A stretch of 26,548 bases of DNA from contig DASVDK010000078.1 in assembly GCA_036381125.1 (NCBI GenBank), positions 1 to 26,548 of the forward strand, given 5' to 3'. Both the position numbers and the translations under genes were made by a program. Below are positions 44-25,980 of this stretch, in pieces. The notes under the pieces are model-generated. The model saw only the letters and a list, made by a program, of their open reading frames with translations. It did no database searches and had not been told where the DNA came from. Numbering within the stretch: position 1 is the first letter of the stretch; every line of letters begins with the position of its first letter. This stretch comes from DASVDK01 sp036381125 [NCBI: Thermodesulfobacteriota bacterium]. GTDB taxonomy: Bacteria; DASVDK01.

Positions 44-559
44 TTAGCCGAGACGCTGGCAACCGGAGGCCAGCGACGGGTTCTTCCTGACGCTCTCGAA
101 GACGCTCTTGGTGACCTCGGCGCTGGGCCGGCCCTCGGAGGCGAAGATCACCTTGAAGTCGCCGCGCAGCGTCCGCCCGACGGCCGCGCTGTCCGAGCAG
201 CCGAGGATGGCGGCCAGGTGGTCGATCGTCTCGCCCGAGCCGCGCGCCACGTCCTTGGCGAACGCCTCGCGGTTCACGTCGATGAAGAGCGACGCGGCCG
301 GCCGTCCGGTCGGGCCGCCGCCCGGGTTGCAGTTGGACGTGCCGAAGCTGATGCCGAACGTCTGCGTGCCGAACGTCGCGTTGGTGGTCGACGCGAGCAC
401 CTGCTTCCATCTGGTCTCGTCGCTCTGGAACAGGAGCGTGCCGAGACCGCAGCCGGCCATGCTGTACTGGTTGCCGCCCATGATCTGGGCCCGCGCATCG
501 TCTAGGCCGAAGGCGGCGAGCGCCGCAACGAACGCGGCGAGACCGAGGACCTTTCGCAT
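44..559 (-). CDS. DUF3015 family secreted protein (copy 1)
   Basis: Protein of 171 residues beginning MRKVLGLAAF with a cleavable signal peptide ending near ARAQ, so it is probably periplasmic or secreted. It carries the DUF3015 hallmarks: an AGCGLGTLLFQ motif just after the signal peptide, then TTNATFGTQTFGISFGTSNC, a NREAFAKDVARGSGET helix, and an LGCSD motif. Four cysteines in the mature part (GCGLG, SNC, GCSD, SGCQ) could form two disulfides. The start is fixed by AGGAGG at 568-573, 8 nt before the ATG. It is closely related to the second copy at 2889-3392, and the two flank a DUF4105 gene on the same strand. The biochemical function of DUF3015 is unknown to me. Family assignment is strong; any role is inferred from its neighbours. 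Confidence 0.88.
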   Translation of the reverse strand: MRKVLGLAAFVAALAAFGLDDARAQIMGGNQYSMAGCGLGTLLFQSDETRWKQVLASTTNATFGTQTFGISFGTSNCNPGGGPTGRPAASLFIDVNREAFAKDVARGSGETIDHLAAILGCSDSAAVGRTLRGDFKVIFASEGRPSAEVTKSVFESVRKNPSLASGCQRLG

Positions 560-733
560 TCGCGATTCCTCCTGGCGGGTTGGCGAGTGCACCGTTGCCG
601 GGCCGAATACGGCCGGGTTCGGACGACGGGCGGCGCGTTGCACGGGTCCGGCCGAAATCTCGGTGGCCGTGACCAGGCTGAGCCGCGGGAGCGGCTCGAC
701 GCGGCCGGCGTCCCGCGACGCGGTGCGGCGAGG

Positions 734-777
734 GCCGGTCCGCCGGAAGAGGGCGCTCGGTCTGCGAGGGGACCGGC
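734..777 (-). terminator. Inverted repeat after the DUF4105 stop
   Basis: Arms GCCGGTCC (734-741) and GGACCGGC (770-777) are perfect complements around a 28 nt GC-rich loop. The element starts 6 nt past the DUF4105 stop codon. There is no T tract, so it is only a possible terminator or RNA-stabilising hairpin. The rest of 560-733 holds the leader of DUF3015 copy 1, including a small GGCCG/CGGCC dyad at 601-614 around an AT step that could be part of a promoter. No gene is seen in this gap. Confidence 0.3.
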
Positions 778-783
778 AAGCGG

Positions 784-2808
784 TCAGAAGTAGACGTGGG
801 CGCCGAGGGCGCCTTCCCAGGCGGCGGGGACCCTCGCCCCTTCGATGCCGAGCGAGAGCCAGCGCGTGAGGTGGACCTTCGCCGTCAGCGAGTACTCGTA
901 CGTCCGTTCGGGGTCGTAGTCGATCAGGTAGCGCCACGACCCGGTGGCCAGGAGCGACACCCGCTCGCCGATCCGGGCGTGGAGGCCCCCGAGCGGACCG
1001 ACGCCGAGCCGGACGCGTCGGTCGAGCAGGCGAGGCGAGGCGACCGTCTCCACGTCCGCCATGGCGAAGGCCACCACCCGCGGCCGATCGAGGAGGGTGA
1101 GCGCGTACCCGCCGCCGAGGTCGAAGTTGGCCGCCAGGCAGTCCCGGCAGCTCTCGTCGCGGATGGTCTTCGCGCCGAAGCCGATCTTCCAGGAGAACTG
1201 GCGGGTGAAGCGGGTGACCGGCGAGAGGGAGACCACGCGCACGGCGTCGAAGCGCTCGAGCCACAGGGTGTCGGGATCGGAGTTGTAGCGCAGGCGCGTC
1301 GAGAAGAACTCGATCTGCGCGTAGTCGGGGTAGCCGGCCTCCGGGTCGGTGAGGTCGTGCAGCGCGAACCGGAAGTCGAGCCGCTCGAAGGGGCCGAGGT
1401 GGTCGGACCAGCCGAAGCCGAGTCCGGCGCGGGCCGAGTCGTGCCCCACCTGCGGCATCCGGTCGTACGGCGGCTCGATGGCGAGGTCGGGGCTCGCCAG
1501 CCGGATGGCGCTGCGGGCCGCGAGGAGTCGGCGCTTGCGCCGAGCCGCCTCGGGGCGCCCCTTGACGAGGTCCTCGCCGTCCCGAAAGTCGACGTAGTCC
1601 AGCGCCGCGTCGAGGATGGCCATGCGCCGCTCCGGCGCGAGCCCGGCCGGCAGCTCGCCGCCGTCGTCGACGATGCGCTTCACGTGGGCGCGATCCTCGG
1701 CCGACAGCGCGGCCACGCGGGCCCTGAACTGCGTCCAGATGGACGGCCGGTAGCGCACCGCCTTCACGAGGCCCGGCTCCGCGTAGAGCGCCTTCACCGT
1801 GTCGGCCGGGATCACCCAGAAGGGGACGCGGTCGACGAGGTCGAGGTCGGGGTTGGCCGCCTCGAGCGCCGTCAGCATGTGGAAGGAGCAGTTCTCGTTC
1901 AGGTAGTAGTAGTCGAACCAGCTCTGACCAAGCTCCCAGAAGTGGGCCACGAGCAGCGCCACCTGCTCGGGCGTGAGGTCGAGGTCGTACTCCCAGATGT
2001 CGCGCGTCTCGTAGTCGTTGTACTGGCGGACCTTGTAGTAGTAGGGGTAGTGGGAGAAGCGTCCCTCGAAGCCGCCGAAGATTCCCTTGAAGGCGTAGAT
2101 GACCGCGTTCGACGTCGTGACGACCGCCGCGTAGTCGATGCCGTAGTCGAGGAGGTCCGACCGCACCACGCCCGGCGTGTCGTCGGCGCGGCTCACCCGC
2201 ATGAACGTGTGCCCGAAGGCCGACGACGGGTTGTTGAGGTAGTAGGAGGAGAAGACGAGGGTGACGGACCTGGCGTCGAGGCGCTCGCGGAAGTCCTCCC
2301 ACTCGGGACAGGAGCGCTCCGGGAGCCGCGTGGGGTCGATGCCGAGCCGTCGCGCGAGCCAGAGCCGGCGCGCGGGGAAGCGGCACTGGGGATGGGGCCC
2401 TTCGTCGGGCACCGGCGCGAAGAACGCCGCGAGCGTGGCCTCCAGCTCCGCCTTCGGGTCCCGCTTGCCGGTCGGGGCGAGGAAGAACGCCTTTCCATCC
2501 ACCTGGCTCTCGAGCTGGCCGAAGAGGTTCCGCCGGTAATGGAGGAGCCTGAGCCACTGCTTGTCGGTGTGCAGGGCGTCGCGGCGGGCCGCCTCGAGCA
2601 GCTCGGGGAGGTAGGTCGGGTCGGGCTCGCCGGCCAGCGCGGGTGCGGCGGCGAGGAACGAAGCGGCGAGGACCCAGGCGGCGGCGAGCGCCGCCGCGCG
2701 GGCGAGCGGCCGTGCGGTCGGTCGGGAGCGGCGGTTCGAGCGCGGCGCGGAGGCCGGCGGCGAGCCGCTGGAGGCCGCGCCGAGCGCGCTCGGGGTCGAG
2801 TGAGCCAG
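784..2808 (-). CDS. DUF4105 (Lnb N-terminal-like) periplasmic protein with beta-rich C-terminus
   Basis: About 674 residues if read from the CTG at 2806-2808. A hydrophobic signal segment (AAALAAAWVLAASFLAAAP, then ALAG) precedes the mature protein. The DUF4105 domain follows, with FSSYYLNNPSSAFGHTFMRV (His about residue 200) and YYLNENCSFHML (Cys about residue 307). These are the His and Cys expected of a permuted papain-like thiol enzyme. In Bacteroides a protein with this domain (Lnb) N-acylates lipoproteins, but substrate use differs across the family. The last ~250 residues alternate polar and aromatic residues in strand-like runs and end in Phe (GAHVYF), like an outer-membrane barrel. 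The start is uncertain: no ATG, GTG or TTG exists on this strand in 2581-2880. The CTG chosen lies behind a weak GAGGA. It sits between two DUF3015 genes on the same strand. Confidence 0.8.
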   Translation of the reverse strand: MAHSTPSALGAASSGSPPASAPRSNRRSRPTARPLARAAALAAAWVLAASFLAAAPALAGEPDPTYLPELLEAARRDALHTDKQWLRLLHYRRNLFGQLESQVDGKAFFLAPTGKRDPKAELEATLAAFFAPVPDEGPHPQCRFPARRLWLARRLGIDPTRLPERSCPEWEDFRERLDARSVTLVFSSYYLNNPSSAFGHTFMRVSRADDTPGVVRSDLLDYGIDYAAVVTTSNAVIYAFKGIFGGFEGRFSHYPYYYKVRQYNDYETRDIWEYDLDLTPEQVALLVAHFWELGQSWFDYYYLNENCSFHMLTALEAANPDLDLVDRVPFWVIPADTVKALYAEPGLVKAVRYRPSIWTQFRARVAALSAEDRAHVKRIVDDGGELPAGLAPERRMAILDAALDYVDFRDGEDLVKGRPEAARRKRRLLAARSAIRLASPDLAIEPPYDRMPQVGHDSARAGLGFGWSDHLGPFERLDFRFALHDLTDPEAGYPDYAQIEFFSTRLRYNSDPDTLWLERFDAVRVVSLSPVTRFTRQFSWKIGFGAKTIRDESCRDCLAANFDLGGGYALTLLDRPRVVAFAMADVETVASPRLLDRRVRLGVGPLGGLHARIGERVSLLATGSWRYLIDYDPERTYEYSLTAKVHLTRWLSLGIEGARVPAAWEGALGAHVYF

Positions 2809-2837
2809 GGTTCGGGTCCTCGGAGTCGACGCGGCGG

Positions 2838-2862
2838 GGAGGGCCTCGTGTCGAGGCCCTCC
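2838..2862 (-). terminator. Strong 11-bp hairpin between DUF3015 copy 2 and DUF4105
   Basis: Perfect inverted repeat with 11-nt arms (GGAGGGCCTCG and CGAGGCCCTCC) and a 3 nt loop. It lies 26 nt after the DUF3015 copy 2 stop and 29 nt before the proposed CTG start of the DUF4105 gene. There is no T tract. It may attenuate, partly terminate, or protect the 3' end of the upstream message so that the small protein is made in excess over the enzyme. Confidence 0.5.
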
Positions 2863-2888
2863 TCGCCGAGGTGGACGGAGCGACGCTG

Positions 2889-3392
2889 CTAGAGGAGCTG
2901 GGTGCAGGTCGACGCGACGGCCTTGTCGGCCCTGATCGTCTCGAGGATCGCGTCGGTGACCTGGTCGGTCGAGGACGGCTCGCTCAGGAAGATCGTGCTG
3001 AAGTTCGACTGGAGCGAGGTCGCGACGGCCTTCGTGTCCGAGCACCCCATGATGGCCGACAGCCCGACCAGGGTCTCGCCCGAGCCGCGCGAGACGTCCT
3101 TCACGAGCGCCTCGCGGTTGGCCTCCACGAAGAGCGCGGCGCGGCGGCTCGTCGAGCGCCGGTCGACGCAGTTGAGCGTCCCGGTCGTGATGCCGAAGGT
3201 CTGGTTGCCGAACGTGCCGTTGGTCGTGGCTGCGAGCACCTGCACGAGCCCCGGCTCGTCCTGGAAGATGAGCGAGCCGAGGCCGCAGCCGGCGGTCCCG
3301 TAGGTGCTCGGATTCAGATTGGCGGCATCGGCGTTCGTGACCCCGAGACCGAGCAGGACGACGGCCGACGCGAGCATGGCAAGTTTCCGCAC
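2889..3392 (-). CDS. DUF3015 family secreted protein (copy 2)
   Basis: Protein of 167 residues read from a GTG with GGAGG 8 nt upstream (3401-3405). A later in-frame ATG at 3376 would shorten the signal peptide. The N-terminus MRKLAMLASAVVLLGLGV ending NADA is a clear signal peptide. The mature part repeats the copy 1 pattern almost motif for motif: AGCGLGSLIFQ, TTNGTFGNQTFGI, LNC, NREALVKDVSRGSGET, MGCSD and a C-terminal cysteine (STCTQLL). A 134 nt leader separates it from the promoter at 3533-3561. It is the first gene of the minus-strand block that continues into DUF4105 and DUF3015 copy 1. The two copies look like an old tandem duplication separated by the enzyme gene. Function unknown. 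Confidence 0.88.
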   Translation of the reverse strand: MRKLAMLASAVVLLGLGVTNADAANLNPSTYGTAGCGLGSLIFQDEPGLVQVLAATTNGTFGNQTFGITTGTLNCVDRRSTSRRAALFVEANREALVKDVSRGSGETLVGLSAIMGCSDTKAVATSLQSNFSTIFLSEPSSTDQVTDAILETIRADKAVASTCTQLL

Positions 3393-3561: not shown

Positions 3562-4345
3562 TGCTCGTGATGCTCGACGATGCCCGGCCGGCCGAACGGC
3601 GGGGGACGCGACCGCCGGGCCAGGGCCCGGCGGTCCGATCGCGATCGAGGCCGTGCAGGAGCGGGTCGTTCGATGCCGGGCCTGCCCGCGCCTCGTCGCC
3701 TACCGGGAGCGCGTGGCGGTGGAGAAGGTCCGGCGCTACCGGGGGGAGCGATACTGGGGCCGCCCGGTTGCCGCCTTCGGGGACCCGACGGCCCGGCTCC
3801 TGATCGTCGGCCTCGCGCCGGCCGCGCACGGGGCGAACCGTACGGGACGGATGTTCACGGGCGACGGTGCCGGCGGCAGCGGCGACTGGGTCGCGGCGGG
3901 GCTCCACGCGGTGGGGCTCGCGAACCGGCCGGTGTCGCGCGCGCCGGACGACGGCCTGGTCCTCCGCGACGCGCTCATCAGCGCCGCCTGCCGATGCGCC
4001 CCCCCGGACAACCGGCCGACCCCGGACGAGCTGGCCCGCTGCCGCCCCTACCTCGAGGCCGAGCTGGCGGCGCTCGAGGACCTGCGCGTCGTCGTGGCGC
4101 TCGGGCGGATCGCCTTCGACGCGGTGCTGGCCGCCTGGGGCCCGGCGGGCGGCGGTCACCTCCCCAGGCCGCGGCCGGCGTTCGTCCACGGCGGCGAGTG
4201 GACGCTGCCGGCCGGCCCCGGCCGTCGCGCGACGACGCTCCTGGCGACGTACCACCCGAGCCGGCAGAACACGAACACCGGCCGGCTGACGCGCGAGATG
4301 TGGCTCGACGTGTTCAGGCGTGCCGCCGCTCGCCTGGGCGCCTGA
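3542..4345 (+). CDS. Family 5 uracil-DNA glycosylase (UDGb type)
   Basis: Removes uracil and other damaged bases from DNA to start base excision repair. The core begins [17 protein letters not shown]. Motif 1 is [19 protein letters not shown], with no catalytic Asp or Asn after the Pro, as expected for family 5. Motif 2 is [14 protein letters not shown] with its His. Cysteines in RCRAC, CRCAPP and ARCRPY fit the four-cysteine iron-sulfur cluster of families 4 and 5. Start choice is hard: no ATG is in frame. TTG at 3542 has AGGAG 7 nt upstream and gives 267 residues. GTG at 3653 would start just before the conserved core, and a GTG at 3419 would run back through the divergent promoter. It is followed 34 nt later by queF. 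Confidence 0.87.
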
Positions 4346-4367
4346 GCCGCGCGTCGTCGGGCTGCGC

Positions 4368-4373
4368 TACCAT
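4368..4373 (+). promoter_or_regulatory. Putative -10 box (TACCAT) for leaderless queF
   Basis: CTACCAT ends 6 nt before the queF ATG, a spacing that would place transcription start at the first base of the start codon. No Shine-Dalgarno sequence lies upstream of this ATG. No convincing -35 element is seen. Confidence 0.45.
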
Positions 4374-4379
4374 TTCCCC

Positions 4380-4739
4380 ATGCCGACGCGTCCCAGCAAG
4401 GAGCTTCGGACCTTCCCGAACCCGAAGCCGGAGCGGCCCTACGAGATCAGCTTCGAGTGCCCGGAGTTCACCTGCGTCTGCCCGATGACCGGGCAGCCCG
4501 ACTTCGCCACCATCCGGATCCGCTACGTCCCGGACCGCACCTGCGTGGAGCTGAAGAGCCTGAAGCTCTACCTCTGGTCCTTCCGCGACGAGGGGGCGTT
4601 CCACGAGGCGGTGACCAACCGGATCCTCGACGACCTGGTGGAGGCCGTCCAGCCGCGCGAGATGACGGTCGTCGGGGACTTCAACGTCCGAGGCGGCATC
4701 CACACGGTCGTGACCGCCAGCTACCGCAAGGAGGGGTAG
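4380..4739 (+). CDS. queF: NADPH-dependent 7-cyano-7-deazaguanine reductase QueF
   Basis: Cytoplasmic enzyme of queuosine biosynthesis that reduces the nitrile of preQ0 to the amine of preQ1. The 119-residue protein is the short unimodular QueF type. It has the active-site stretch [10 protein letters not shown], with thioimide-forming Cys34 and the acid Asp41 seven residues later. The QueF signature ELKSLKLY is at residues 57-64, and the C-terminal half ends [15 protein letters not shown]. An upstream in-frame start at 4320 would overlap the glycosylase gene, so the ATG at 4380 is preferred; it matches the usual family N-terminus ([14 protein letters not shown]). No other queuosine gene is in the window. 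The start is preceded by a CTACCAT box rather than a ribosome binding site. Confidence 0.96.
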
Positions 4740-4752
4740 GCGCGCCGCGGTC

Positions 4753-4758
4753 TACAAT
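4753..4758 (+). promoter_or_regulatory. Putative -10 box (TACAAT) for the leaderless DUF72 gene
   Basis: CTACAAT sits in the 25 nt gap after queF and ends 6 nt before the ATG of the DUF72 gene. It is the best -10 match of the four similar boxes in this window. There is no Shine-Dalgarno sequence. Confidence 0.5.
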
Positions 4759-4764
4759 CACGGC

Positions 4765-5691
4765 ATGCCTCGCCCCGAGCGGATCCGCGTCGGCACCTCC
4801 GGCTGGCACTACCCACGCGGCGACGACCGCTGGACCGGGGTGTTCTATCCCCGCGGCACGAAGGACGAGCTGGCGTACTACGCGGAGCGGTTCGACACGG
4901 TGGAGGTGAACGTGACCTTCTACCGGCAGGTGCCGCCCGAGACGACGGAGGCCTGGGCGGCGAGAACACCCGACCGGTTCGACTTCTCGGTCAAGCTCTA
5001 CCAGAAGTTCACGCACCCGAAGATGTACGAGGCGGCCACCGGAAGGCCGGCGTCCGTCGCGCGGGGCGACCTCGACGCCTTCAAGCGCTCCATGTCGCCC
5101 CTGGCCGAGGCGGGCAAGCTGGGGAGCGTGCTCGCGCAGTTCCCCGCGTCCTTCAAGCGGACGCCCGAGTCGGAGCGGATGCTCGACGGCCTCCTCACGG
5201 CGCTCGACGGCTTCCCGGTGACGGTCGAGCTGCGCCACCGCTCCTGGAGCGACGCGGAGGAGGCGACGGAGGAGCTGCTCCTGCGGCACCGGGCCGGGTG
5301 GGCGCAGATCGACGAGCCGAAGTTCGCGACCTCGGTGAGGCAGCCGATGGCGGTGCGGGGGGGCATCGGCTACTTCAGGCTCCACGGGCGCAACGCCGAG
5401 GCCTGGTGGAAGAAGGACGCCGGCTCGGAGCGCTACCACTACCTGTACTCGGACGACGAGCTGGACTCCTTCGTCGACGCGATCCTCGGCGCCTCCGACC
5501 GGGCCGAACGGGTCTACGTCTACTTCAACAACCACTTCCGCGGCGCGTCGGTGGCCAACGCGCTGATGATGAAGCCGAAGCTCGGCCAGCCGCTCGGCGC
5601 CGCCTACGAGCCGACCCTCGTCGAGCACTATCCCGTTCTCGAGGGTCGGGTGCCGGTGGCGGGGCCGAAGGGGCAGGGGCGGCTGCTGTGA
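4765..5691 (+). CDS. DUF72 (YecE-like) TIM-barrel protein
   Basis: A 308-residue cytoplasmic protein. The N-terminus RIRVGTSGWHYP, then FYPRGTKDELAYYAERFDTVEVNVTFYR, FDFSVKLYQKFTH and the late YVYFNNHFRGASVANALMM are the conserved blocks of the DUF72 family, whose fold is a TIM barrel. No biochemical activity is firmly established for the family, and the presence of conserved acidic and aromatic residues only hints at a sugar- or nucleotide-related role. Length is a little above the usual 240-300. The C-terminal tail after HYPVLEG is short and low in complexity. It lies in a same-strand run with queF before it and an AlaX-type gene 20 nt after it. Confidence 0.92.
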   Translation: MPRPERIRVGTSGWHYPRGDDRWTGVFYPRGTKDELAYYAERFDTVEVNVTFYRQVPPETTEAWAARTPDRFDFSVKLYQKFTHPKMYEAATGRPASVARGDLDAFKRSMSPLAEAGKLGSVLAQFPASFKRTPESERMLDGLLTALDGFPVTVELRHRSWSDAEEATEELLLRHRAGWAQIDEPKFATSVRQPMAVRGGIGYFRLHGRNAEAWWKKDAGSERYHYLYSDDELDSFVDAILGASDRAERVYVYFNNHFRGASVANALMMKPKLGQPLGAAYEPTLVEHYPVLEGRVPVAGPKGQGRLL

Positions 5692-9664: not shown

Positions 9665-10900
9665 CTAGGTGACCGTGATCGGGTGCTCGACCACGGCGTT
9701 GTAGAGGTAGCCCTGGTCGTTCCACGGCACGCTGTCGGGCTGCGTGTTGCCGGCCTCGTCGGTGGCGCGCAGGCGAATGGCGTGCCGGCCGGGGCGTGCG
9801 TCCCAGTCGAAGCGGAACCGCACCCACGCGCCGGCGATGTTCGGCTCGCCGAGCGACGCGATCCGCCACGGCCCGCGGTCGACGCTCACCTCCACCTTCG
9901 CGATCCTCGCCGGCGCCCAGGCGCGCCCCGTCAACACGTAGCGGCCCGCCGCCACGCGCGCGTCCCACGCGAACTCGAGGGCGCTCTTGACGTTCTGCGA
10001 CGTGAGCACCGGCCCCTTGGACGGCGGCTGGGGCTGGTAGTCGGGGCCGATCAGGACGTAGCTGTCGGTGTTCCAGGGCGAGAAGAGCGGCTCGTCCGAC
10101 ACCTCGATGCGGCCGAGCCACTTCACGTTCTGGACGCCGATCCAGCCGGGCGCCAGGAGCCGGGCCGGGAAGCCGTGGTCGGGCGGGAGCGTCTCGCCGT
10201 TCATGGCGTAGACGACGAGCGTGTCGTCGGCCGTCGCCTTGGCGATCGGCATGGGCCGGCGCACCTTGAGGTCGTCGAGGCCGGCCGGCATCACGTCGCG
10301 CGCGGTCGGCTTCACGCCGGCGCGATCGAGGATCTCGGAGAGGCGCACGCCTGTCCACTCGGCGACCCCGACCGCTCCGAGCTTCCACTGGGTGCCCTGC
10401 GCCCGCTTGCCGTACGCCTGCTCGAAGAAGCTGCGGCCGTTGCCGGCGCACTCGACGTAGCGCAGCACCGAGACCGAGGGGAGCTTGAGGAGGTCGTTGT
10501 AGGACAGGGTGAGGGGCCGCGAGACGCCGCTTCCGTCGACGGTCAGCGTCCAGGTGCCGGCCTCGATCTGCGGCGTCTTCGTGTGGTTGCGCACGAAGAA
10601 GAGCCCGTTCGGCACCACGTAGCCGCGGCCGTACATCTGCTCCCAGCGCATCTCGAGGTTGCTGCCGTACCGGTTGAAGAGCTCCGGCGGCGCAGCCTTG
10701 ACGACCGGGCTCGCCGCCTCGCCAGCCGCCGCGCGCGAGGGCCGAAGCCCCCCGGCCAGGCCGGCGCCGGCGGCCGCGAGGGCGAGCAGGCGGCGGCGCG
10801 ACAGGCCGAGGGCGCGCGCTTCGCGCCAGAGATGCTCGTCGGTGCGGGCCAGGCGGTACGTCTGCGGGTCGACGAGGTCTCGCTCGAGCCGGTGCGGCAT
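9665..10900 (-). CDS. Sulfite-oxidase-family molybdopterin enzyme, Tat-exported
   Basis: A 411-residue protein. The N-terminus contains the twin-arginine signal SRRRLLALAAAGAGLAGG at about residues 34-51, so it is folded with cofactor and exported to the periplasm. The molybdenum domain has the cysteine ligand Cys151 in YVECAGNGRSFF, with GTQWKLGAVGVAEWTGVRL and HGFPARLLAPGWIGVQNVKWL following, as in sulfite oxidase/SorA/SoxC. A C-terminal Mo-co dimerisation domain begins around TGRAWAPARIAKVEVSVDRGPW. No heme domain is fused, so an external acceptor is needed, probably the adjacent cupredoxin. GGGAGG 6 nt before the ATG fixes the start. Sulfite is the likely substrate, but other anions cannot be excluded. 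Confidence 0.9.
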   Translation of the reverse strand: MPHRLERDLVDPQTYRLARTDEHLWREARALGLSRRRLLALAAAGAGLAGGLRPSRAAAGEAASPVVKAAPPELFNRYGSNLEMRWEQMYGRGYVVPNGLFFVRNHTKTPQIEAGTWTLTVDGSGVSRPLTLSYNDLLKLPSVSVLRYVECAGNGRSFFEQAYGKRAQGTQWKLGAVGVAEWTGVRLSEILDRAGVKPTARDVMPAGLDDLKVRRPMPIAKATADDTLVVYAMNGETLPPDHGFPARLLAPGWIGVQNVKWLGRIEVSDEPLFSPWNTDSYVLIGPDYQPQPPSKGPVLTSQNVKSALEFAWDARVAAGRYVLTGRAWAPARIAKVEVSVDRGPWRIASLGEPNIAGAWVRFRFDWDARPGRHAIRLRATDEAGNTQPDSVPWNDQGYLYNAVVEHPITVT

Positions 10901-10931
10901 GACCGTCCTCCCACGACTGGACCCGGAAACC

Positions 10932-10937
10932 AGTATA
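10932..10937 (-). promoter_or_regulatory. Putative -10 box of the molybdoenzyme-cupredoxin operon
   Basis: Minus-strand TATACT lies 31 nt upstream of the molybdoenzyme ATG in the 85 nt divergent gap, which fits a leader carrying its GGGAGG. No good -35 element is evident. Confidence 0.35.
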
Positions 10938-10973
10938 CCAGCGTTTGCCGACTCCGGCGCGGGGCAGCCCTGC

Positions 10974-10979
10974 TACACT
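10974..10979 (+). promoter_or_regulatory. Putative -10 box (TACACT) for a leaderless ABC ATPase gene
   Basis: TGCTACACT, an extended -10 form, ends 6 nt before the GTG at 10986. Transcription would begin at or beside the start codon. No ribosome binding site is present. Confidence 0.5.
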
Positions 10980-10985
10980 TCCCGC

Positions 10986-11687
10986 GTGCCGCTCGAGCCC
11001 GCCGTCTCCGTCCGCGACGTCAGCAAGGTGTACCTGACGGGGGATCTCAGGGTGGAGGCGGTCCGCGGCGTGAGCCTCGACGTGGCGCCGGGGACGTTCC
11101 TCGCGCTCGTGGGGCCGTCGGGCTGCGGCAAGTCGACCCTCCTCAACCTCATCGGCGCCCTCGATCGGCCCAGCCGGGGCGACGTCGTCGTAGGCGGCGT
11201 CTCGCTCGGCGCGCTCGACGACGACGGGCTCACCCGCTACCGCCGGCAGACGGTCGGCTTCGTGTTCCAGTTCTTCAACCTCCTGCCGAGCCTGACGGTC
11301 GCGGAGAACGTCGCGCTCCCCATGCAGATCGACGGCCGGCCGGCCGCCGCCGTGCGCGAGCGCGTCGCTCGCCTCCTCGAGGAGGTCGGCCTCGCGCACC
11401 GGGCCGGACACCGGCCGGCGCAGCTCTCGGGGGGCGAGCAGCAGCGGGTGGCGGTCGCGCGCGCGCTGGCGAACGACCCGCCCCTGCTCCTCGGCGACGA
11501 GCCGACCGGCAACCTCGACACCCGCGCCTCCGCGGCCCTGACGGCGCTCTTCGCCGGGCTGGCGCGCGACGGGCGGCGCACGGTCATCCTCGCGACCCAC
11601 AGCCCCGAGGTGGCGGCCGCGGCCGACCGGGTGGTCCGCATGCGCGACGGCGAGGTCGTCGAGGACGCGGCGGCCGTCGCGCGATGA
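10986..11687 (+). CDS. ABC transporter ATP-binding protein (LolD/MacB/AttE type)
   Basis: A 233-residue cytoplasmic ATPase. Walker A is GPSGCGKST, the Q-loop is VFQFFNLLPSLTVAENV, the signature is LSGGEQQRVAVARAL, and Walker B is LLLGDEPTGNLD. This form is characteristic of the MacB/LolD/FtsE group that drives FtsX-fold permeases in type VII (mechanotransmission) ABC systems. The GTG start matches the family N-terminus (VSVRDVSKVYLTG). Its stop overlaps the permease ATG by ATGA, so the two are translationally coupled. With the permease and the lipocalin-like gene that follow, it resembles the AttEFGH system. Substrate is unknown; lipid or lipoprotein handling is inferred. Confidence 0.93.
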   Translation: MPLEPAVSVRDVSKVYLTGDLRVEAVRGVSLDVAPGTFLALVGPSGCGKSTLLNLIGALDRPSRGDVVVGGVSLGALDDDGLTRYRRQTVGFVFQFFNLLPSLTVAENVALPMQIDGRPAAAVRERVARLLEEVGLAHRAGHRPAQLSGGEQQRVAVARALANDPPLLLGDEPTGNLDTRASAALTALFAGLARDGRRTVILATHSPEVAAAADRVVRMRDGEVVEDAAAVAR

Positions 11688-14284
11688 CGGGGCTCTCGGC
11701 GCTCGTCCGCCGCGTGACCTGGCCCTCGGTGGCGGCGCACAAGGGGCGCAGCCTCCTCACGCTGGCCGGCATCGCCATCGGCGTCGGCGTGTTCCTCGCG
11801 GTGCGGCTCGCCAACGTGAGCATCACCGAGGCGTTCGCCACGAGCCTCGACCTCTTCGCGGGGAGCGCGCAGTTGACCGTCTCGCGGCCCGGCTTCGGCC
11901 TCGACGAGACCCTCCTGCCGCTCATCGAGGCCGACCCGGCGGTCGCCCGCGCCGAGCCGCAGGTGGTGGGGACCCTCGTCACCGCGGACCCGGCGCGGGA
12001 GATCCTCCTCGTCTACGGCATCGACGTCCTGCGCTCGCGCCCGACGACCGCGTCGATCGACGCGGCGGGCGGGGACGGCGAGGACCAGGGCTTCCTCGGC
12101 GAGGACGACGCCCTCCTCGTCACGCGGCGCTTCGCCCAGGGGCGCGGGCTTCGCGTCGGCGACCGCCTCGAGGTCCTCGCCGGCTCGCGGCGCGCGTCGC
12201 TGCGCATCCGGGGCCTCCTCGTGCCGGCCGAGGCGGAAGGCGAACGGGGCGGCAGCGCGTCGGGCTTCCTCGAGCGGACGGTGGCCGTCATGGACCTCGC
12301 GGCGGCCCAGCCGCTCCTCGACCGCGTGGGGCGCCTCGACGCCGTGGCGCTCACCCTCCGCGAGGGCGCGGACGCCGATGCCGTGCGCGCGCGCCTCACC
12401 GCCGCGCTGCCCGACGGCGTGGTCGTCGACCGGCCCATCGAGCGGAGCGGCCAGGTCGACCAGATGCTCGACGCCTTCCGGCTGAACCTGACGATCCTCT
12501 CCCTCATCGCGCTCCTCGTCGGCGTCCTCCTCGTGTACAACACGCTCACCTTCTCCGTGGTGCAGCGCCGCCGGGAGATCGGGATCCTCCGGGCCATCGG
12601 CGTCTCCCGGCGCGGCGTCGAGGCGGCCTTCCTGGCCGAGGGGGTCGCGTACGGCGCGGCCGGCGGGCTCCTCGGCGTCCTCCTCGGCCTCGCCCTCGCG
12701 AAGGGGACGCTCGGCGCCATGGCGAGGACCGTGTCGGTCCTCTACCTGCACGCGCCGGTCGAGCGGCTGCGGGTCGACGCGGGCGACCTCTTGCTCGGGC
12801 TCGCCGTCGGCGTCCTCGTCTCGGCGGCGGCGGCGTTCGCGCCGGCGCGCGCCGCGGCCGGCGTGCCGCCGAGGGAGCCGATCGCACTCGGCGCGGCCCG
12901 AAGCGACACCGGCCGGGCCGGGCGGCGACGCGCCCGGCGGCTCGCCCTGGCCGGTCTCGCGATCCTGACGTTCGCCGGCCTGCTCGCCGCGCTGCCTCCC
13001 TGGCACGGCCGGCCGCTCGGCGGCTACGGAGCGGCCTTCGTGGTCCTCGTGGCGGCGCTCCTCGTGGCGCCGGTCCTCGTCCTGGCGGTCGGGCGCGCGG
13101 CGCGGCCCCTGGTCGGCCGCCTCGGGGGGCCGGCGGCGCGCCTGGCGGCCGATCACTTCGTCCAGGGGCTCCGCCGCAACGCGGCCACCGTGGCGGCGCT
13201 GTCGGTCAGCCTCGCCATGCTCGTCTCGGTCTGGATCATGGTGTCCGCCTTCCGCGCCACCGTGGAGGCCTGGATCGCGCAGTCGGTGCGGGCCGACCTC
13301 GTGGTCACGCCCGCCGCGCGCCTCGGCGGCTCGCGCGAGGCCTCGCTGCCGGCCGGCGTGGTCGAGCGGATCCGCGCGCTGCCCGGCGTGGCGGAGGTGG
13401 ACGCGTTCCGAGGCGCCGACGTCCGGTACGAGGGGAGCCCCATCGTCCTCGGCTCGGGCGACCTCGCCCTCCAGCTCAGGCGGGGGCGCCTCCCCTTCAT
13501 GGCCGGGACGCCGGCCGACGTCCTCGACGAGGTCGTGGCGCGCCGGGGCGCGCTCGTGAGCGAGTCCTTCGCTCGCCGCTTCGACCGCTGGGTCGGCTCC
13601 ACCATCACGCTCGACCTGCCGGCCGGTCGCCGGAGCTATCCCGTGGTGGGGGTCTTCTACGACTACACGACCGATCGGGGGCTCGTGGTGCTCGACGCCG
13701 CGACGTACGTCGCGGACACCGGGCGGCGCGACGTGCAGAGCGCGGCCGTCTATCTCGAGCCGGGCGCCGACCTCGAGGGCGCGCGTCGGTCGCTCGAGTC
13801 GCTGTTCGGCCCGGACGCCGCCGTGGCGGTCGTCTCCAACCGCGAGCTGCGCGCGCGGGTGCTCGACATCTTCGACCAGACCTTCGCCATCACCTTCGCG
13901 CTCGAGCTGATCGCCGTGGTGGTGAGCGCCATCGCCGTGGTGAACACGCTCGTCGCCTCGACGATCGAGCGGCAGGCCGAGCTCGGCATCCTCAGGGCGA
14001 TCGGCCTCGGCCGCGCCGACATCGGCCGGCTCGTGCGAGCCGAGGCGGGGCTCATCGCCGGAGCCGCCAGCCTCCTCGGGGTCGTCGTCGGGATCGCGCT
14101 GTCGCTCATCCTGGTCTTCGTCATCAACCGGCAGGCCTTCGGCTGGACGATCCAGTACCACCTGCCCCCCGAGGCGCTGGCGACGGCGGCGGCCCTGGCC
14201 GTCGGCACCGCGCTCGTCGCCGCCACGTGGCCCGCCCGGCGCGCTGCCGCGCAGCCGATCGCCCAGGCGGTTCGATACGAGTGA
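11684..14284 (+). CDS. Double FtsX-domain ABC permease (AttFG-like)
   Basis: An 866-residue inner-membrane protein with two FtsX repeats. The N-terminal repeat has an anchor helix in RSLLTLAGIAIGVGVFLAV, a periplasmic MacB-like region (about 45-255) and an FtsX core (about 258-400) with VVQRRREIGILRAIGVSRR. A pair of linker helices follows (about 418-475). The second repeat has its anchor helix near 500-520, another periplasmic region, and the C-terminal core from about 730 with TIERQAELGILRAIGLGRADIGR. REIGILRAIG and AELGILRAIG are the conserved coupling-helix segments. About ten membrane spans are expected. Such permeases usually move or extract lipids, lipoproteins or peptides rather than import small solutes. 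It overlaps the ATPase gene by 4 nt and is followed 30 nt later by the lipocalin-like gene. Confidence 0.92.
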   Translation: MTGLSALVRRVTWPSVAAHKGRSLLTLAGIAIGVGVFLAVRLANVSITEAFATSLDLFAGSAQLTVSRPGFGLDETLLPLIEADPAVARAEPQVVGTLVTADPAREILLVYGIDVLRSRPTTASIDAAGGDGEDQGFLGEDDALLVTRRFAQGRGLRVGDRLEVLAGSRRASLRIRGLLVPAEAEGERGGSASGFLERTVAVMDLAAAQPLLDRVGRLDAVALTLREGADADAVRARLTAALPDGVVVDRPIERSGQVDQMLDAFRLNLTILSLIALLVGVLLVYNTLTFSVVQRRREIGILRAIGVSRRGVEAAFLAEGVAYGAAGGLLGVLLGLALAKGTLGAMARTVSVLYLHAPVERLRVDAGDLLLGLAVGVLVSAAAAFAPARAAAGVPPREPIALGAARSDTGRAGRRRARRLALAGLAILTFAGLLAALPPWHGRPLGGYGAAFVVLVAALLVAPVLVLAVGRAARPLVGRLGGPAARLAADHFVQGLRRNAATVAALSVSLAMLVSVWIMVSAFRATVEAWIAQSVRADLVVTPAARLGGSREASLPAGVVERIRALPGVAEVDAFRGADVRYEGSPIVLGSGDLALQLRRGRLPFMAGTPADVLDEVVARRGALVSESFARRFDRWVGSTITLDLPAGRRSYPVVGVFYDYTTDRGLVVLDAATYVADTGRRDVQSAAVYLEPGADLEGARRSLESLFGPDAAVAVVSNRELRARVLDIFDQTFAITFALELIAVVVSAIAVVNTLVASTIERQAELGILRAIGLGRADIGRLVRAEAGLIAGAASLLGVVVGIALSLILVFVINRQAFGWTIQYHLPPEALATAAALAVGTALVAATWPARRAAAQPIAQAVRYE

Positions 14285-14301
14285 CGGCCGTGCCCGAGGG
14301 C

Positions 14302-14307
14302 TACGCT
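14302..14307 (+). promoter_or_regulatory. Putative -10 box (TACGCT) for the leaderless AttH-like gene
   Basis: CTACGCT lies in the 30 nt gap after the permease and ends 7 nt before the ATG. The nearest purine-rich run (GAGGG) is too far upstream for a ribosome binding site. An internal promoter within the operon is implied. Confidence 0.4.
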
Positions 14308-14314
14308 GGACGCC

Positions 14315-15439
14315 ATGAGTAAGCTCGTCGTCGGCGCACTCTTGCCGCTGCTCGCCGCGGGGTCGGTCCTTGCGGCCCCGTTCGTCTACCGGCAGGCCCT
14401 GCCCGGCTACCGGTTCGAGTTCCCGCGCGACCACGCCTCGCACGAGGCCTTCCGCACGGAGTGGTGGTACTACACCGGCAACCTGACGGCCGAGGGCGGC
14501 CGCCGGTTCGGCTTCCAGGTGACCTTCTTCCGCGTGGGGCTGCGCGACCGCGTGAACCCGGACAACCCGTCCCGGTGGCGCCCCGACAACGTGTACTTCG
14601 CCCACCTGGCGGTGACCGACATCGGGGAGGGCCGGTTCCGCTACTGGCACCGGACGAGCCGCGCCGGTCCCGGCCTCGCCGGCGCCGCGAGCGACCGGTA
14701 CGCGGTCTTCATCGGCGACTGGCGCGCCTGGCTCGAGGGAGGCGTCCACCGCCTCTCGTTGGCCGTTCCCGCGGACCGCGTCGGGCAGCCGGCCGAGGTG
14801 CGGCTCGACCTCGCCCTCGAGCCCACGAAGCCGCCGGTCGTCCACGGTCGGGACGGCGTGAGCCAGAAGGCGGCCGGCCTCGGGCGCGCGTCGCACTACT
14901 ACTCGCTCACTCGCCTGGCCGTCACCGGCACGCTCGGCCTCGACGGGCGGGACCTCTCGGTCGACGGCCTCGCCTGGATGGATCACGAGTTCGGGAGCAA
15001 CCAGCTCGGCGAGGACCAGGTCGGCTGGGACTGGCTGAGCCTCCAGCTCTCCGACGGCTCGGAGCTCATGCTCTACCGCCTGCGGCTCAAGGGGGGCGGC
15101 GTCGAGCCGGCCTCCTCGGGCACCGTCGTCCGGCCCGACGGCAGCTCGCGGCACCTCGTCCTCGCCGACTTCCGGATGACGCCGGAGGGGACCTGGACGA
15201 GCCGGGCGTCCGGCGGAACCTACCCCGTGCGGTGGCGGATCGAGGTGCCGTCGGAGCGGATCGCCCTCACCGTGGAGCCCGCCCTCGAGGACCAGGAGCT
15301 GCGGACCGAGGGCTCGACCGGCGTCACCTACTGGGAGGGGGCCGTCGTCGCTCGCGGCGAGAACGGAGGCCGGCCGGTGGACGGGCGCGGGTACCTCGAG
15401 CTGACCGGCTACGCCCGGCCCTTCGACACCGACATCTGA
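14315..15439 (+). CDS. CrtC/AttH-type lipocalin-like exported protein
   Basis: A 374-residue protein with a signal peptide (MSKLVVGALLPLLAAGSVLA, mature from APF). The family blocks are FPRDHASHEAFRTEWWYYTGNL, FGFQVTFFR, AHLAVTDI, AAGLGRASHYYSLTRL and LAWMDHEFGSNQL, those of the carotenoid 1,2-hydratase/AttH superfamily with two lipocalin-like barrels. Database names such as hydroxyneurosporene synthase are probably misleading here, since no carotenoid genes are nearby. The AttEFGH neighbourhood points instead to a periplasmic partner of the ABC exporter binding a hydrophobic molecule. The 3' end overlaps the convergent phoR gene by 31 nt. Confidence 0.9.
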   Translation: MSKLVVGALLPLLAAGSVLAAPFVYRQALPGYRFEFPRDHASHEAFRTEWWYYTGNLTAEGGRRFGFQVTFFRVGLRDRVNPDNPSRWRPDNVYFAHLAVTDIGEGRFRYWHRTSRAGPGLAGAASDRYAVFIGDWRAWLEGGVHRLSLAVPADRVGQPAEVRLDLALEPTKPPVVHGRDGVSQKAAGLGRASHYYSLTRLAVTGTLGLDGRDLSVDGLAWMDHEFGSNQLGEDQVGWDWLSLQLSDGSELMLYRLRLKGGGVEPASSGTVVRPDGSSRHLVLADFRMTPEGTWTSRASGGTYPVRWRIEVPSERIALTVEPALEDQELRTEGSTGVTYWEGAVVARGENGGRPVDGRGYLELTGYARPFDTDI

Positions 15440-22011: not shown

Positions 22012-22746
22012 TCAGGCGGCCTCCCGAGGCGGCACGAACTTGTAGCCGACCCCGCGCACGGTGACGATCAGCTTGGGGTCGGCCGGGTTCTCCTCGATCT
22101 GCGCGCGCAGGCGCTTGATGTGGACGTCCACCGTGCGCGGCTCGACGAACTCCTCGCCCCAGATCAGGTCGAGGAGCTGGTCGCGCGTGTAGACCCGTTC
22201 GGCGTGCGTGAGGAAGAAGCGGAGCAGGCGGAACTCCATGGGGCGCAGCGACACCGGCCGGCCGTTGCGTGTGACCTCGTAGGTCGCGAAGTCCACCACG
22301 AGCCCGCCCACCTCGTAGCGCTCGCTCTCGACCGGGCGGGCCTGCTCGCGCTCCTGGCGGCGCATCAGGGCGCGGACCCGCGCGACCAGCTCTCGCGGGC
22401 TGAAGGGCTTGGTGAGGTAGTCGTCGGCCCCCACCTCGAAGCCGATCAGCTTGTCCACCTCCTCGCCGCGGGCGGTGAGCATGATGAGGGGGATGCCGGC
22501 CGTCTTCGGATCACGGCGCAGGGCGCGGCAGACCTCGAGCCCCTGGACGTCGGGCAGCATGAGGTCGAGGACCACCACGTCGAACGGCTCGTGGCGGACG
22601 AGCGACAGCGCGCGCGCCCCCTCGCCGACCCCCTGCACCTCGAAGCCTTCCTTGCGCAGGTTCGCCGCGACCAGCTCGACGATGTCGGGCTCGTCGTCGA
22701 CGACGAGGACCCGCGGCGTCCTGCGCGCCGTCGTGCTCACGCTCAT
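22012..22746 (-). CDS. phoB: Phosphate regulon response regulator PhoB
   Basis: A 244-residue OmpR/PhoB-family transcription factor. The receiver domain carries the acidic pair Asp17-Asp18 (VVDDEPD), the phosphorylation site Asp61 (VVLDLMLPD), Thr91 and Lys113 (YLTKPF). The C-terminal winged helix shows LRPMEFRLLRFFLTHAERVYTRDQLL, WGEEFVEPRTVDVHIKRLR and VRGVGYKFV. GGAGG 6 nt before this ATG sets the start; a longer reading to 22908 would add low-complexity residues. phoB precedes pstS in the same direction, while its kinase gene phoR lies at the far end of the cluster. Confidence 0.95.
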   Translation of the reverse strand: MSVSTTARRTPRVLVVDDEPDIVELVAANLRKEGFEVQGVGEGARALSLVRHEPFDVVVLDLMLPDVQGLEVCRALRRDPKTAGIPLIMLTARGEEVDKLIGFEVGADDYLTKPFSPRELVARVRALMRRQEREQARPVESERYEVGGLVVDFATYEVTRNGRPVSLRPMEFRLLRFFLTHAERVYTRDQLLDLIWGEEFVEPRTVDVHIKRLRAQIEENPADPKLIVTVRGVGYKFVPPREAA

Positions 22747-22815
22747 GCCCTGCCTCCGCCAACGGCTCGCGGCCGGCGTCCGCTCCGCGCGGGGTGAACC
22801 CGCGCTCCGCTCCAC

Positions 22816-22876
22816 GCGAGCCTTCGGCTCGCCCCGGCCGGTGGCCGCTCGCCTCGGGCGGCGCGACCGCGCCGCC
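22816..22876. repeat. Two GC-rich hairpins upstream of phoB
   Basis: Arms GCGAGCC/GGCTCGC with a TTC loop (22816-22832) and GGCGGCGCG/CGCGCCGCC with a 2 nt spacer (22857-22876) are perfect. Both fall in the proposed phoB leader and downstream of the ars genes, so they could end ars transcription or structure the phoB leader. No gene is seen in 22747-22999. Confidence 0.4.
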
Positions 22877-22898
22877 GCCCGGGTACGGGACGGCGGGA

Positions 22899-22943
22899 AG
22901 TCTAGCATGGCGTGTCACGGGCTCCGTGAACGCATCGTGACCC
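22899..22943 (-). promoter_or_regulatory. Candidate Pho box and -10 of phoB
   Basis: Minus-strand 7-mers GGGTCAC and CGTTCAC (22943-22926), 4 nt apart, resemble the CGGTCAC/CTGCCAC pair before pstS. A TAGACT -10-like box follows at 22904-22899, 21 nt beyond, about one helical turn further than in Escherichia coli Pho promoters. Autoregulation of phoB is the implied role. Confidence 0.4.
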
Positions 22944-22978
22944 GCGCGGTCGACCGGGCGCCACACCGCCTCTCCCTC

Positions 22979-23000
22979 GCCGGCCGGCCTGCCGGCCGGC
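22979..23000. repeat. Perfect 10-bp inverted repeat at the end of the arsC remnant
   Basis: GCCGGCCGGC is repeated as its own complement around a 2 nt CT centre. It coincides with the point where ArsC similarity ends. It may be a terminator-like hairpin or mark a rearrangement junction. Confidence 0.45.
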
Positions 23001-23299
23001 GCGGCCAGGAAGAGCCGGAACGCGGCGAGCCGCTCCTCCTCGCTCCCGGTCGCGACGGACCGGTCGCCGAAGCTCCAGGCGAGGCGCCGCGCCGGCGCCG
23101 GGAAGACCGCGCAGGACCCGGCCGCCCTGTCGCTCGCGGTGATCACGCAGTCCCAGGGCTGGTCGATGAAGGGGTCGACCGTCTTCGACGTGTGGCCCGA
23201 GACGTCGATCCCGATGTCGGCCATGGCCGTGACGGCGAGCGGGTGGACGCGCGTCGCCTCGGTGTTGGCCGAGGCGAGCCGACACGATGCCGGCGTCAT
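23000..23299 (-). pseudogene. arsC remnant (thioredoxin-type arsenate reductase, 5'-truncated)
   Basis: Minus-strand reading from an ATG that overlaps the arsM stop as ATGA. After a few unrelated residues it gives ASANTEATRVHPLAV, IGIDVSGHTSKTVDPFI, WDCVITASDRAAGSCAVFP and EEERLAAFR, clear similarity to the low-molecular-weight-phosphatase-like ArsC. About 40 N-terminal residues, including the catalytic P-loop CX5R, are missing. The second catalytic Cys, expected in VITxC, is Ala or Ser, leaving only the third (SC). The frame has no stop of its own nearby and continues past the inverted repeat at 22979-23000 into phoB. It therefore cannot be an active reductase and is best read as a decayed gene once cotranscribed with arsM. 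A recruited non-catalytic product cannot be excluded. Confidence 0.7.
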
Positions 23300-24123
23300 C
23301 GAGCATGGGGAGATGGAGGGACGGGCGGCTTGACCGCCCGGACGAACGCGCTCATGAACGTCCCGTCGATCGCTGCGAGGGCGGACTCGTCGAGCCCGGC
23401 CGGGGCGAGCCAGTCGCGCACGTCCTCGGCACGGTAGACGCGCGTCGGCTCGACGTCGATCACCTCGAAGCCGGCGCGCGCGAGCCTCGACCGGTAGTCC
23501 CCTTCCTCGAGGGCGCCGGCCACGCACCCGGCCCACAGCTCCACGCTGCGCCGGACCTCCGGCGGCACGTCGCCGCGGACCACGACGTCCGAGACGGCGA
23601 GGCGGCCGCCCGGCTTGAGGACGCGGAACGCCTCGGCGAAGACGCGGTCCTTGTCGGCCGACAGGTTGATCACGCAGTTCGAGATGATCACGTCCACGGT
23701 TGCGTCGGGGAGCGGGATCCGCTCGATCTCGCCCTTGAGAAACTCCGCGTTCTCGACGCCGGCCTTCCGCTGGTTCTCGCGCGCCAGCGCGAGCATCTCG
23801 TCGGTCATGTCGAGCCCGTAGGCCTTCCCCCCGGGCGCCACGCGGCGCGCCGAGAGGAGCACGTCGATCCCCCCGCCCGAGCCGAGGTCGAGCACGACCT
23901 CGCCGGGCCGCAGGTCGGCCAGCGCCGTCGGGTTGCCGCAGCCGAGGGAGGCCGCCACGGCCTCGGCCGGCAGGGCGGCCGTGTCGCCGGCCTCGTAGAG
24001 GTCGCACGTGATCGGGTCCTTCGCCCCCGTCGGCCCGCAGCAGCCGCTTCCGCCCTGGATCACCCGGAGCGCGGCCTCGCGGTAGCGCTCCCGCACCGTC
24101 TCCTTGATGCCCGTCTTCTCCAT
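23296..24123 (-). CDS. arsM: Arsenite S-adenosylmethionine methyltransferase ArsM
   Basis: A 275-residue cytoplasmic enzyme that methylates As(III) with SAM, giving methylated and volatile arsenicals. The three cysteines needed for catalysis in the family are present: Cys62 (SLGCGNP), Cys150 (ISNCVINL) and Cys200 (AGCVAGAL). An N-terminal GSGCCGP pair (28-29) and Cys40 are also present. The SAM motif is [15 protein letters not shown], followed by [15 protein letters not shown] 7 nt before the ATG fixes the start. Transcription probably begins from the promoter at 24247-24274. An arsC remnant overlaps its stop codon. No arsR, arsB or acr3 gene is within the window. Confidence 0.95.
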
Positions 24124-24208
24124 CGTTCGTCCTCCTGACGCCGTCGCTACCGCTTCGCGGTCCCGAGGGTGACGAGCCCGTTCGCCAGGCGAGCGGCGGA
24201 CGCCGGCA

Positions 24209-24274
24209 GCCTCCAGTATTCCAGATTTGTCGAAATGTACGATTCGAGAATACCAGAAGCGTGGAGGCTGTCAA
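24209..24274 (-). promoter_or_regulatory. arsM promoter with nested palindromic operator
   Basis: On the minus strand TTGACA (24274-24269) and TATTCT (24252-24247) are 16 nt apart, the best consensus promoter in the window. The region is markedly AT-rich for this genome. Nested inverted repeats surround it: GCCTCCA/TGGAGGC (24209-24215, 24262-24268), GTATTC/GAATAC (24216-24221, 24248-24253) and an inner TCGAA/TTCGA pair. This is the layout expected for an ArsR/SmtB-type repressor covering -10 and the start site. The 24124-24208 leader encodes nothing I recognise. Confidence 0.6.
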
Positions 24275-24301
24275 GGAAGGCCGAACCGGGGGCAGGCCCG
24301 T

Positions 24302-25171: not shown

Positions 25172-25172
25172 C

Positions 25173-25979: not shown

Positions 25980-25980
25980 G

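Follow-up and report, generated by a model that had tools for sequence, protein, structure and literature searches.

Comparative genomics ties a predicted outer-membrane DUF4105 enzyme to a small exported partner protein

A contig of a Thermodesulfobacteriota bacterium (DASVDK01 sp036381125; contig DASVDK010000078.1, positions 1 to 26,548, called the window below) encodes a putative thiol enzyme of the Lnb_N (DUF4105) family between two small proteins of the DUF3015 family. Its sequence and a structure model show the middle protein to be, as predicted, an exported one in which a His/Cys thiol domain of the Lnb_N family is followed by a 12-stranded barrel end. Comparative genomics shows that enzymes of this architecture are tied to a small exported partner, normally a DUF3015 protein encoded just upstream and sometimes another small lipoprotein. 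On balance we favor, with modest confidence, a two-component outer-membrane enzyme that would transfer acyl chains or cleave lipids, its partner serving catalysis and its activity being additional to that of Lnt. Two families without an assigned function, DUF3015 and the barrel-type DUF4105 proteins with DUF7843 and DUF7840 regions, are thereby joined in one testable unit, which spans predatory bacteria, nitrifiers and soil bacteria and suggests, in addition to Lnt, PagP, LpxR and PldA, a further lipid-modifying step at the outer membrane.

The first-pass annotation of the window, made from the sequence alone, had noticed two DUF3015 genes flanking a DUF4105 gene on one strand, an arrangement borne out by coordinates and Pfam matches, and had proposed that adjacency of the two families be looked for in other genomes. 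The adjacency proved to be widespread. Among the best 80 of at least 537 relatives of the enzyme found by profile search in named genomes, 74 have DUF3015 in their locus, and the contigs of the other six break off about 500 nt or less upstream of the enzyme gene. The pair is retained in L006, L010, L015, L016 and L022 (L, locus; G, genome) though DUF3015 lies on the opposite strand. Four of nine plasmid records with an enzyme relative were examined: in three annotated gammaproteobacterial plasmids (Salinivibrio, Pseudoalteromonas, Acinetobacter) DUF3015 lies directly upstream in otherwise differing surroundings, and the fourth, unannotated record also has DUF3015, by profile match. In a set of 149 enzyme genes that counts a few regions twice, the same strand carries the closest DUF3015 (limit 1.5 kb) upstream of the enzyme in 121 cases; it is upstream on the opposite strand in 1, downstream on the opposite strand in 5 (one a weak match, in L092) and downstream on the same strand in 4 (one, in L156, belonging to a neighboring enzyme copy); the other 18 have none within that distance, 9 of them starting less than 500 nt from a contig or locus end. 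No natural fusion of enzyme and DUF3015 in a single open reading frame (ORF) was seen in the loci of this set. The extra downstream DUF3015 copy of the window is unusual, and flanking on both sides is not general.

The association extends from loci to whole genomes. In a sample of 229 genomes from the class of G049, presumed to be Gammaproteobacteria, DUF3015 occurs in 42 of the 46 genomes with the barrel enzyme and in 0 of the 183 without it (Fisher test, 1e-41). In 134 genomes of the Bdellovibrio phylum, a label that rests on L069 lying in G032, 79 have the enzyme, 79 have DUF3015, 78 have both and 54 have neither; of the genomes with a single family, one holds only a barrel without the enzyme domain and the other nothing but a piece of DUF3015 where a contig ends. 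When the second pieces of split genes are dropped, DUF3015 lies no more than 1.5 kb from 109 of 118 enzyme genes in this phylum (upstream of 91, downstream of 18), and an enzyme gene adjoins 124 of the 134 DUF3015 copies. Coordinates from 150 genomes in the same phylum as a Nitrosomonas genome place 15 of 18 DUF3015 copies next to an Lnb_N match. The genome searches scored limited first-look candidates per genome, and absences are to that extent uncertain. In two two-copy cases, L152 and G303 (L116 and L147), each enzyme copy pairs with the DUF3015 of its own class. A crude comparison of stop-to-stop ORFs from 84 loci gave no clear third conserved gene beside the pair: the groups spanning 65, 24 and 11 loci hold frames that overlap the pair, that of 65 being a chained mixture, and the next group spans 8 loci.

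Genes in which the enzyme has lost its presumed catalytic residues bear on the role of the partner. Among 280 aligned enzyme frames, which include some split, partial or twice-seen ones, the position of His143 (mature numbering) holds His in 271, a gap in 7 and another residue in 2, and that of Cys250 holds Cys in 271, a gap in 7 and another residue in 2; L142 and L176 are the only frames with a substitution at either place. In L142, His143 is replaced by Gln and Cys250 by Gly; in L176, Glu and Arg occupy these positions in an otherwise full-length frame of 546 residues. No partner adjoins either gene, and a search of the whole genome G260, host of L142, gave no DUF3015 match. Partners are likewise missing beside L172 and L180, DUF7840-type barrels without an enzyme domain, and the whole genome G513, host of L172, gave no DUF3015 match. 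These free-standing barrels (L172, 2375-3124; L180, 2777-3607) apparently have their own signal peptide.

Counted over both random samples, of the class and of the Bdellovibrio phylum (51 + 118 genes, less the contig-end genes L150 of the class and L173 of the phylum), a partner, either DUF3015 or a small lipoprotein, adjoins 160 of the 163 intact genes; neither of the 2 dead genes nor either of the 2 barrel-only genes has one. The Fisher test gives 7e-4 for dead versus intact genes and 1e-6 with the barrel-only genes added, values to be taken as an indication only because the rows are related sequences. Of the 49 intact genes in the class sample, 46 have a partner (43 have DUF3015 and 3 the lipoprotein, that of L156 at 398 nt), and this sample adds one dead gene; the phylum sample contributes 114 of 114 intact genes with a partner (109 with DUF3015, 1 with the diverged DUF3015 of L174, 4 with the lipoprotein), one dead gene and both barrel-only genes. 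L149, a split gene whose pieces hold both catalytic residues, was counted as intact. In the Bdellovibrio phylum, all 109 genes paired with DUF3015 keep His and Cys. The partner follows the active catalytic domain rather than the barrel and should therefore serve the reaction; accompanying the enzyme in several phyla and absent at the two dead copies, it has the look of a helper in a reaction that modifies the membrane.

The enzyme itself has the FGHTF histidine, the NENCSF cysteine and the C-terminal Phe that had first drawn attention to it, the chain terminating in ...HVYF, and its PF13387 match of 192 bits against a curated cut-off of 22.2 places it in the family. In alignment A3 (77 rows, leaving out the partial or split frames of L044, L059, L074, L078 and L082 and the second enzyme copies in L008 and L084), His143, Asn249 and Cys250 are invariant, as are Cys110 and Arg212-Asp213; Cys85 and Cys110 are conserved N-terminal cysteines. 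Modelled with AlphaFold2, the mature chain (mean pLDDT 94.4, pTM 0.91) has 12 confidently placed strands in residues 403-616, where the first-pass annotation had seen a beta-rich C-terminus and called for a structure prediction. The barrel matches NanC (Z 14.7), EstA (14.4), KdgM (14.1), NalP (12.9), LpxR (11.9) and OMPLA (11.6), Foldseek likewise matches the C-terminus to outer-membrane barrels, and the last residue is Phe, Tyr or Trp in 64 of the 77 rows of A3, which are cut at the profile end. The even-stranded modelled barrel and the C-terminal aromatic residue strongly support an outer-membrane beta-barrel protein, and with it the anchoring that the annotation had proposed. The structure-match lists are filled by the barrel, and NlpC/P60 or LRAT chains are absent from them. 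No convincing sequence-level relative was found among solved structures in a Protein Data Bank (PDB) search, the seven matches at E 0.26-0.74 being to the Max protein and taken as chance.

Where DUF3015 is missing, the partner is in several cases exchanged rather than lost. Next to the DUF3015-less enzymes of L100, L101, L106, L107 and L157 lies a small protein that resembles a lipoprotein and has an end of the GGxFGxTTDYAS type; it also stands beside second enzyme copies in L156 and L008, and in the Bdellovibrio phylum beside the enzyme in L175, L177, L178 and L179 (Table 1). It occurs both there and in Pseudomonadota. The short forms of L100 and L101, the two that were scanned, have no Pfam match over the cut-off. 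In an enzyme tree with four duplicate regions dropped and 8 lipoprotein-type copies included, six lipoprotein-partnered copies and one contig-end copy form one group (support 0.853; core without L156, 1.0), and L092 and L008_2711 lie elsewhere; L008_2 starts at a contig end, and the adjacent lipoprotein belongs to L008_2711. The association therefore arose, or was kept, more than once. The lipoprotein of L092 combines a PEGA domain with a weakly DUF3015-like end, a likeness that is suggestive only (hhalign E 8e-4, probability 24%; Pfam E 0.029, below the cut-off).

Further forms separate the two halves of DUF3015. Unlinked proteins whose match is chiefly to its helical half occur in the genomes of L127 (G392) and L139 (G361); in most of them (L159, L161 and L162) the helix half follows a lipobox-like leader, and L160 has no clear lipobox. 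G265 has one more such helix-half protein (L163) beside its ordinary pair. The N-terminal Cys half of DUF3015 is therefore dispensable in some forms. The earlier proposal that the enzyme acts on, or with, the DUF3015 proteins can thus be divided: the joint occurrence of partner and active enzyme gives good support to acting with them, and acting on them is weakened, because in some genomes the Cys-bearing half is replaced by a lipoprotein leader or the whole partner is swapped.

Within the DUF3015 family, Cys13 and Cys52 are invariant and Cys94 and Cys140 are at least 90% conserved (alignment A4, 93 rows, without the copies of L017, L019, L036, L056, L066 and L074 and one copy of L076), and the two paralogues of the window, 47% identical, share the cysteine pattern ascribed to them from the sequence. 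Judged from this conservation, the Cys13-Cys52 pair looks like a disulfide. The helical module holds a conserved ARGxGE motif (N69, G80, G82, E83 and L88 in A4), which is still visible in the lipoprotein-like DUF3015 forms; this module is the best candidate for contact with the enzyme. In the fold model (mean pLDDT 74.5) residues 1-53 are mostly below 50, and only the C-terminal helices are confident. A likeness to pheromone-binding protein was considered and set aside, the best PDB match at Z 3.8 being too weak to use. In L165, L166 and L167, from the Bdellovibrio phylum, the DUF3015 relatives adjoining the enzyme have a longer, strongly diverged N-terminal half that ends in a Ser-Thr-Gly-x-Cys or Ser-Trp-Gly-x-Cys motif.

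DUF3015 also occurs alone. Pseudomonas-like genomes (L085, L086 and L087; minus strand, about 4143-5577) have a DUF3015 gene without DUF4105, neighbored, as judged by eye, by a CstA-like gene on one side and PilZ-like and RadA-like genes on the other. By gene order, PA4607 is the putative lone DUF3015 of Pseudomonas. The literature passages on PA4607 give it no function. A Leptospira DUF3015 gene appears as down-regulated in a table of iron-related genes (PMC13066512).

The genes of the window are listed in Table 1; transcription on the minus strand runs from DUF3015-a through the enzyme to DUF3015-b. GGAGG is present upstream of the DUF3015-a start, and the two flanking proteins score 147.1 and 133.7 bits against the PF11220 cut-off of 25. 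The enzyme frame is open far upstream, and a start-codon scan found no ATG, GTG or TTG in it between position 3045 and the signal peptide, so that its start is uncertain; the only candidate nearby is a CTG at 2808, which follows a CCGAGG by a few bases, and the gene may have a rare start codon or reflect an assembly error. Its closest relatives among the matches listed, about 50% identical, come from Anaeromyxobacter and other deltaproteobacterial or Myxococcota records.

Table 1. Features of the DUF3015-enzyme-DUF3015 region of the window, and coordinates of the lipoprotein partners found in the Bdellovibrio phylum
Feature	Coordinates	Strand	Remarks
DUF3015-a	2889..3392	minus	167 aa, signal peptide, GTG start; PF11220 E 4.3e-43
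DUF7843-Lnb_N(DUF4105)-DUF7840 enzyme	784..2808	minus	Pfam; start codon uncertain
DUF7843 N-terminal domain of enzyme	2350..2577	minus	PF25225 E 9.6e-26
Lnb_N (DUF4105) papain-like/permuted NlpC-P60 catalytic domain	1783..2298	minus	PF13387 E 8.4e-57
His143 of mature enzyme chain (FGHTF), presumed catalytic	2209..2211	minus	77/77 alignment rows
Cys250 of mature enzyme chain (NENCSF), presumed nucleophile	1888..1890	minus	77/77 alignment rows
Predicted 12-stranded outer-membrane beta-barrel (DUF7840 region), C-terminal Phe	790..1431	minus	PF25222 E 2.7e-45; modelled strands 403-616
DUF3015-b	44..559	minus	171 aa, signal peptide; PF11220 E 5.8e-39; second, downstream copy
Lipoprotein-like, TTDYASG-like end	L175 3488-3862; L177 2179-2556; L178 2454-2819; L179 2110-2505		

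In the mechanism that we favor, Cys250, activated by His143, would take an acyl chain from a phospholipid, as family membership suggests, to give a Cys250-acyl intermediate. Lipid-acyl chemistry is described for Lnb (PMC12994826, PMC13103446), and acyl chemistry through a cysteine is proposed for DUF4105 and related lipid enzymes (PMC12994826). The barrel would hold the catalytic domain at the outer membrane, on its periplasmic side, where an acceptor within the membrane, or else water, would then receive the acyl chain. DUF3015 would bind the enzyme through its helical half and enable or restrain the reaction as a cofactor, scaffold or regulator rather than as its main substrate, and the enzyme would work in addition to Lnt. 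For the partner, cofactor or regulator is our first choice, inhibitor the second and substrate the third. More tentatively, the unit may represent an undescribed acyl-modification pathway of the outer membrane, in which a barrel-anchored Lnb-type enzyme works only with a swappable periplasmic partner and acylates an outer-membrane component in cells that also possess Lnt; such a pathway would be spread over Myxococcota, Bdellovibrionota, Nitrospirota/Nitrospinota and Pseudomonadota, its partner module being either the DUF3015 helix module or the GGxFGxTTDYAS lipoprotein. The dead enzymes and swapped partners provide a direct route to testing the role of the partner.

Several observations weigh against the favored reading. 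The dead-enzyme comparison rests on two cases, and its rows are related rather than independent. Intact copies without an adjoining partner exist in L127, L139 and L158 of the class sample and in L093 of the Nitrosomonas-phylum sample, and for L093 and L158 no partner was found anywhere searched. Lone DUF3015 genes account for 3 of 18 copies in the 150-genome Nitrosomonas-phylum sample and for 10 of 134 in the Bdellovibrio phylum, several of the latter partial or at contig ends; DUF3015 may therefore also act alone. The divergence of enzyme and DUF3015 is congruent across 120 pairs (r 0.849; permutation maximum 0.144), which speaks for the reading, but shared descent inflates this mirror-tree correlation, and the third two-copy locus, L062, is not informative, one copy agreeing with the class pairing and the other not.

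The alternative that survives best, though we consider it rather unlikely, is a role for DUF3015 as dedicated inhibitor or safety protein, restraining a potentially harmful periplasmic lipid-cleaving enzyme as immunity proteins do for related secreted toxins. Tox-Act1, a clade sister to DUF4105, is a lipid-acting effector with antibacterial action (PMC12994826), in most pairs the partner gene precedes that of the enzyme (121 of 149 enzyme genes), and the dead enzymes have no partner beside them. Against this role, DUF3015 genes also occur without an adjoining barrel enzyme; the three window proteins have no PADLOC match, and no recurring secretion or conflict gene was seen beside the pair in the crude 84-locus ORF comparison.

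Slightly less probable again is a substrate role, in which DUF3015 or the replacing lipoprotein would be lipidated as a dedicated acyl acceptor and kept at the outer membrane. An inactive enzyme would have no need of a substrate, the partners are exported and some are lipoprotein-like, and the Bacteroides relative Lnb acylates lipoproteins (PMC12994826). The two partner families, however, show no evident common acceptor site, the invariant Cys13-Cys52 pair of DUF3015 looks like a disulfide, and the half that bears it is missing altogether in L159 and L161-L163.

The barrel might instead be a type-V-like translocator that displays the thiol domain on the cell surface, which we regard as improbable. 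Its 12 strands are those of EstA and NalP, both among its best structural matches (Z 14.4 and 12.9), but the small non-translocating barrels NanC and KdgM score about equally (14.7 and 14.1). Conserved cysteines are unusual in autotransporter passengers, as Cys85 and Cys110 would be here, and the partners have the appearance of periplasmic or lipid-anchored proteins.

The least likely reading is that the enzyme is just another lipoprotein N-acyltransferase, on a par with Bacteroides Lnb: the catalytic Pfam domain is the same and is even named Lnb_N, but Lnt (LNT_N), scored in the genomes of relatives rather than in the window's own, is present in 39 of 42 enzyme-host genomes (those of 42 of the best-80 loci) and in 44 of 46 of the class sample, the predicted anchor is an outer-membrane barrel, and the only one of 14 control genomes with Lnb_N, a Bacteroides, has no DUF3015; the E. 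coli control gave no match to either family. A stand-in for Lnt was accordingly rejected, and since nearly all hosts examined have Lnt, the enzyme does not replace it as Lnb does in Bacteroides; the suggestion of a Bacteroides-type role, lipoprotein N-acylation in place of Lnt, found no support.

Two other groups of genes in the window may be recorded. On the minus strand, 22012-26523 holds a PhoB-type response regulator (by domains), an ArsM-like methyltransferase (by eye), and two ABC permeases together with an ATPase; between regulator and methyltransferase lies a frame that reads by eye like a fragment of an arsenate reductase and gave no Pfam match when scanned. This stretch is possibly a phosphate/arsenate cluster. 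On the plus strand, 10659-15439 holds an ABC ATPase frame and a long frame resembling two FtsX-type permease halves (both by eye), with a CrtC-type lipocalin protein (PF07143, PF17186), and looks like one exporter-lipocalin unit.

Neither the enzyme-DUF3015 pair nor its reaction is mentioned in the literature passages found on either family, and comparison with known systems sets the unit apart from each of them. An anti-phage defense system was considered and rejected, PADLOC returning 0 families for the three window proteins at E 0.01. The DUF7844-Lnb_N protein of L096 has Lnb_N in common with the window enzyme but is without DUF7843 and DUF7840. No DUF3015 was found within 5.5-6.5 kb around L096 and six long Lnb_N genes (L094, L095, L097-L099 and L102); these six are weak matches to the barrel-type profile, and the Pfam scan was made on L096 only. 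With OMPLA (PldA) and LpxR the enzyme shares a 12-stranded outer-membrane barrel and a presumed lipid substrate, but its active site would lie in a separate soluble domain ahead of the barrel. PldA occurs in 20 of 46 class-sample genomes with the barrel enzyme versus 36 of 183 without it, co-occurring rather than alternating, and a replacement for OMPLA was therefore rejected.

The permuted NlpC-P60 group of Tox-Act1, TseH, LRAT and YiiX has the same His-then-Cys order; unlike its members, the enzyme belongs to a two-gene unit found in many phyla, is predicted to be anchored in the outer membrane and shows no sign of being a secreted effector. The enzyme may also be compared with Bacteroides Lnb, whose membrane part we take to be C-terminal inner-membrane helices. 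DUF4105 is grouped with lipid-acting permuted NlpC/P60 enzymes, and the family includes Lnb (PMC12994826). Lnb and the window enzyme share the catalytic domain PF13387, and the latter differs in its predicted C-terminal outer-membrane barrel, its DUF7843 head and its DUF3015-type partner.

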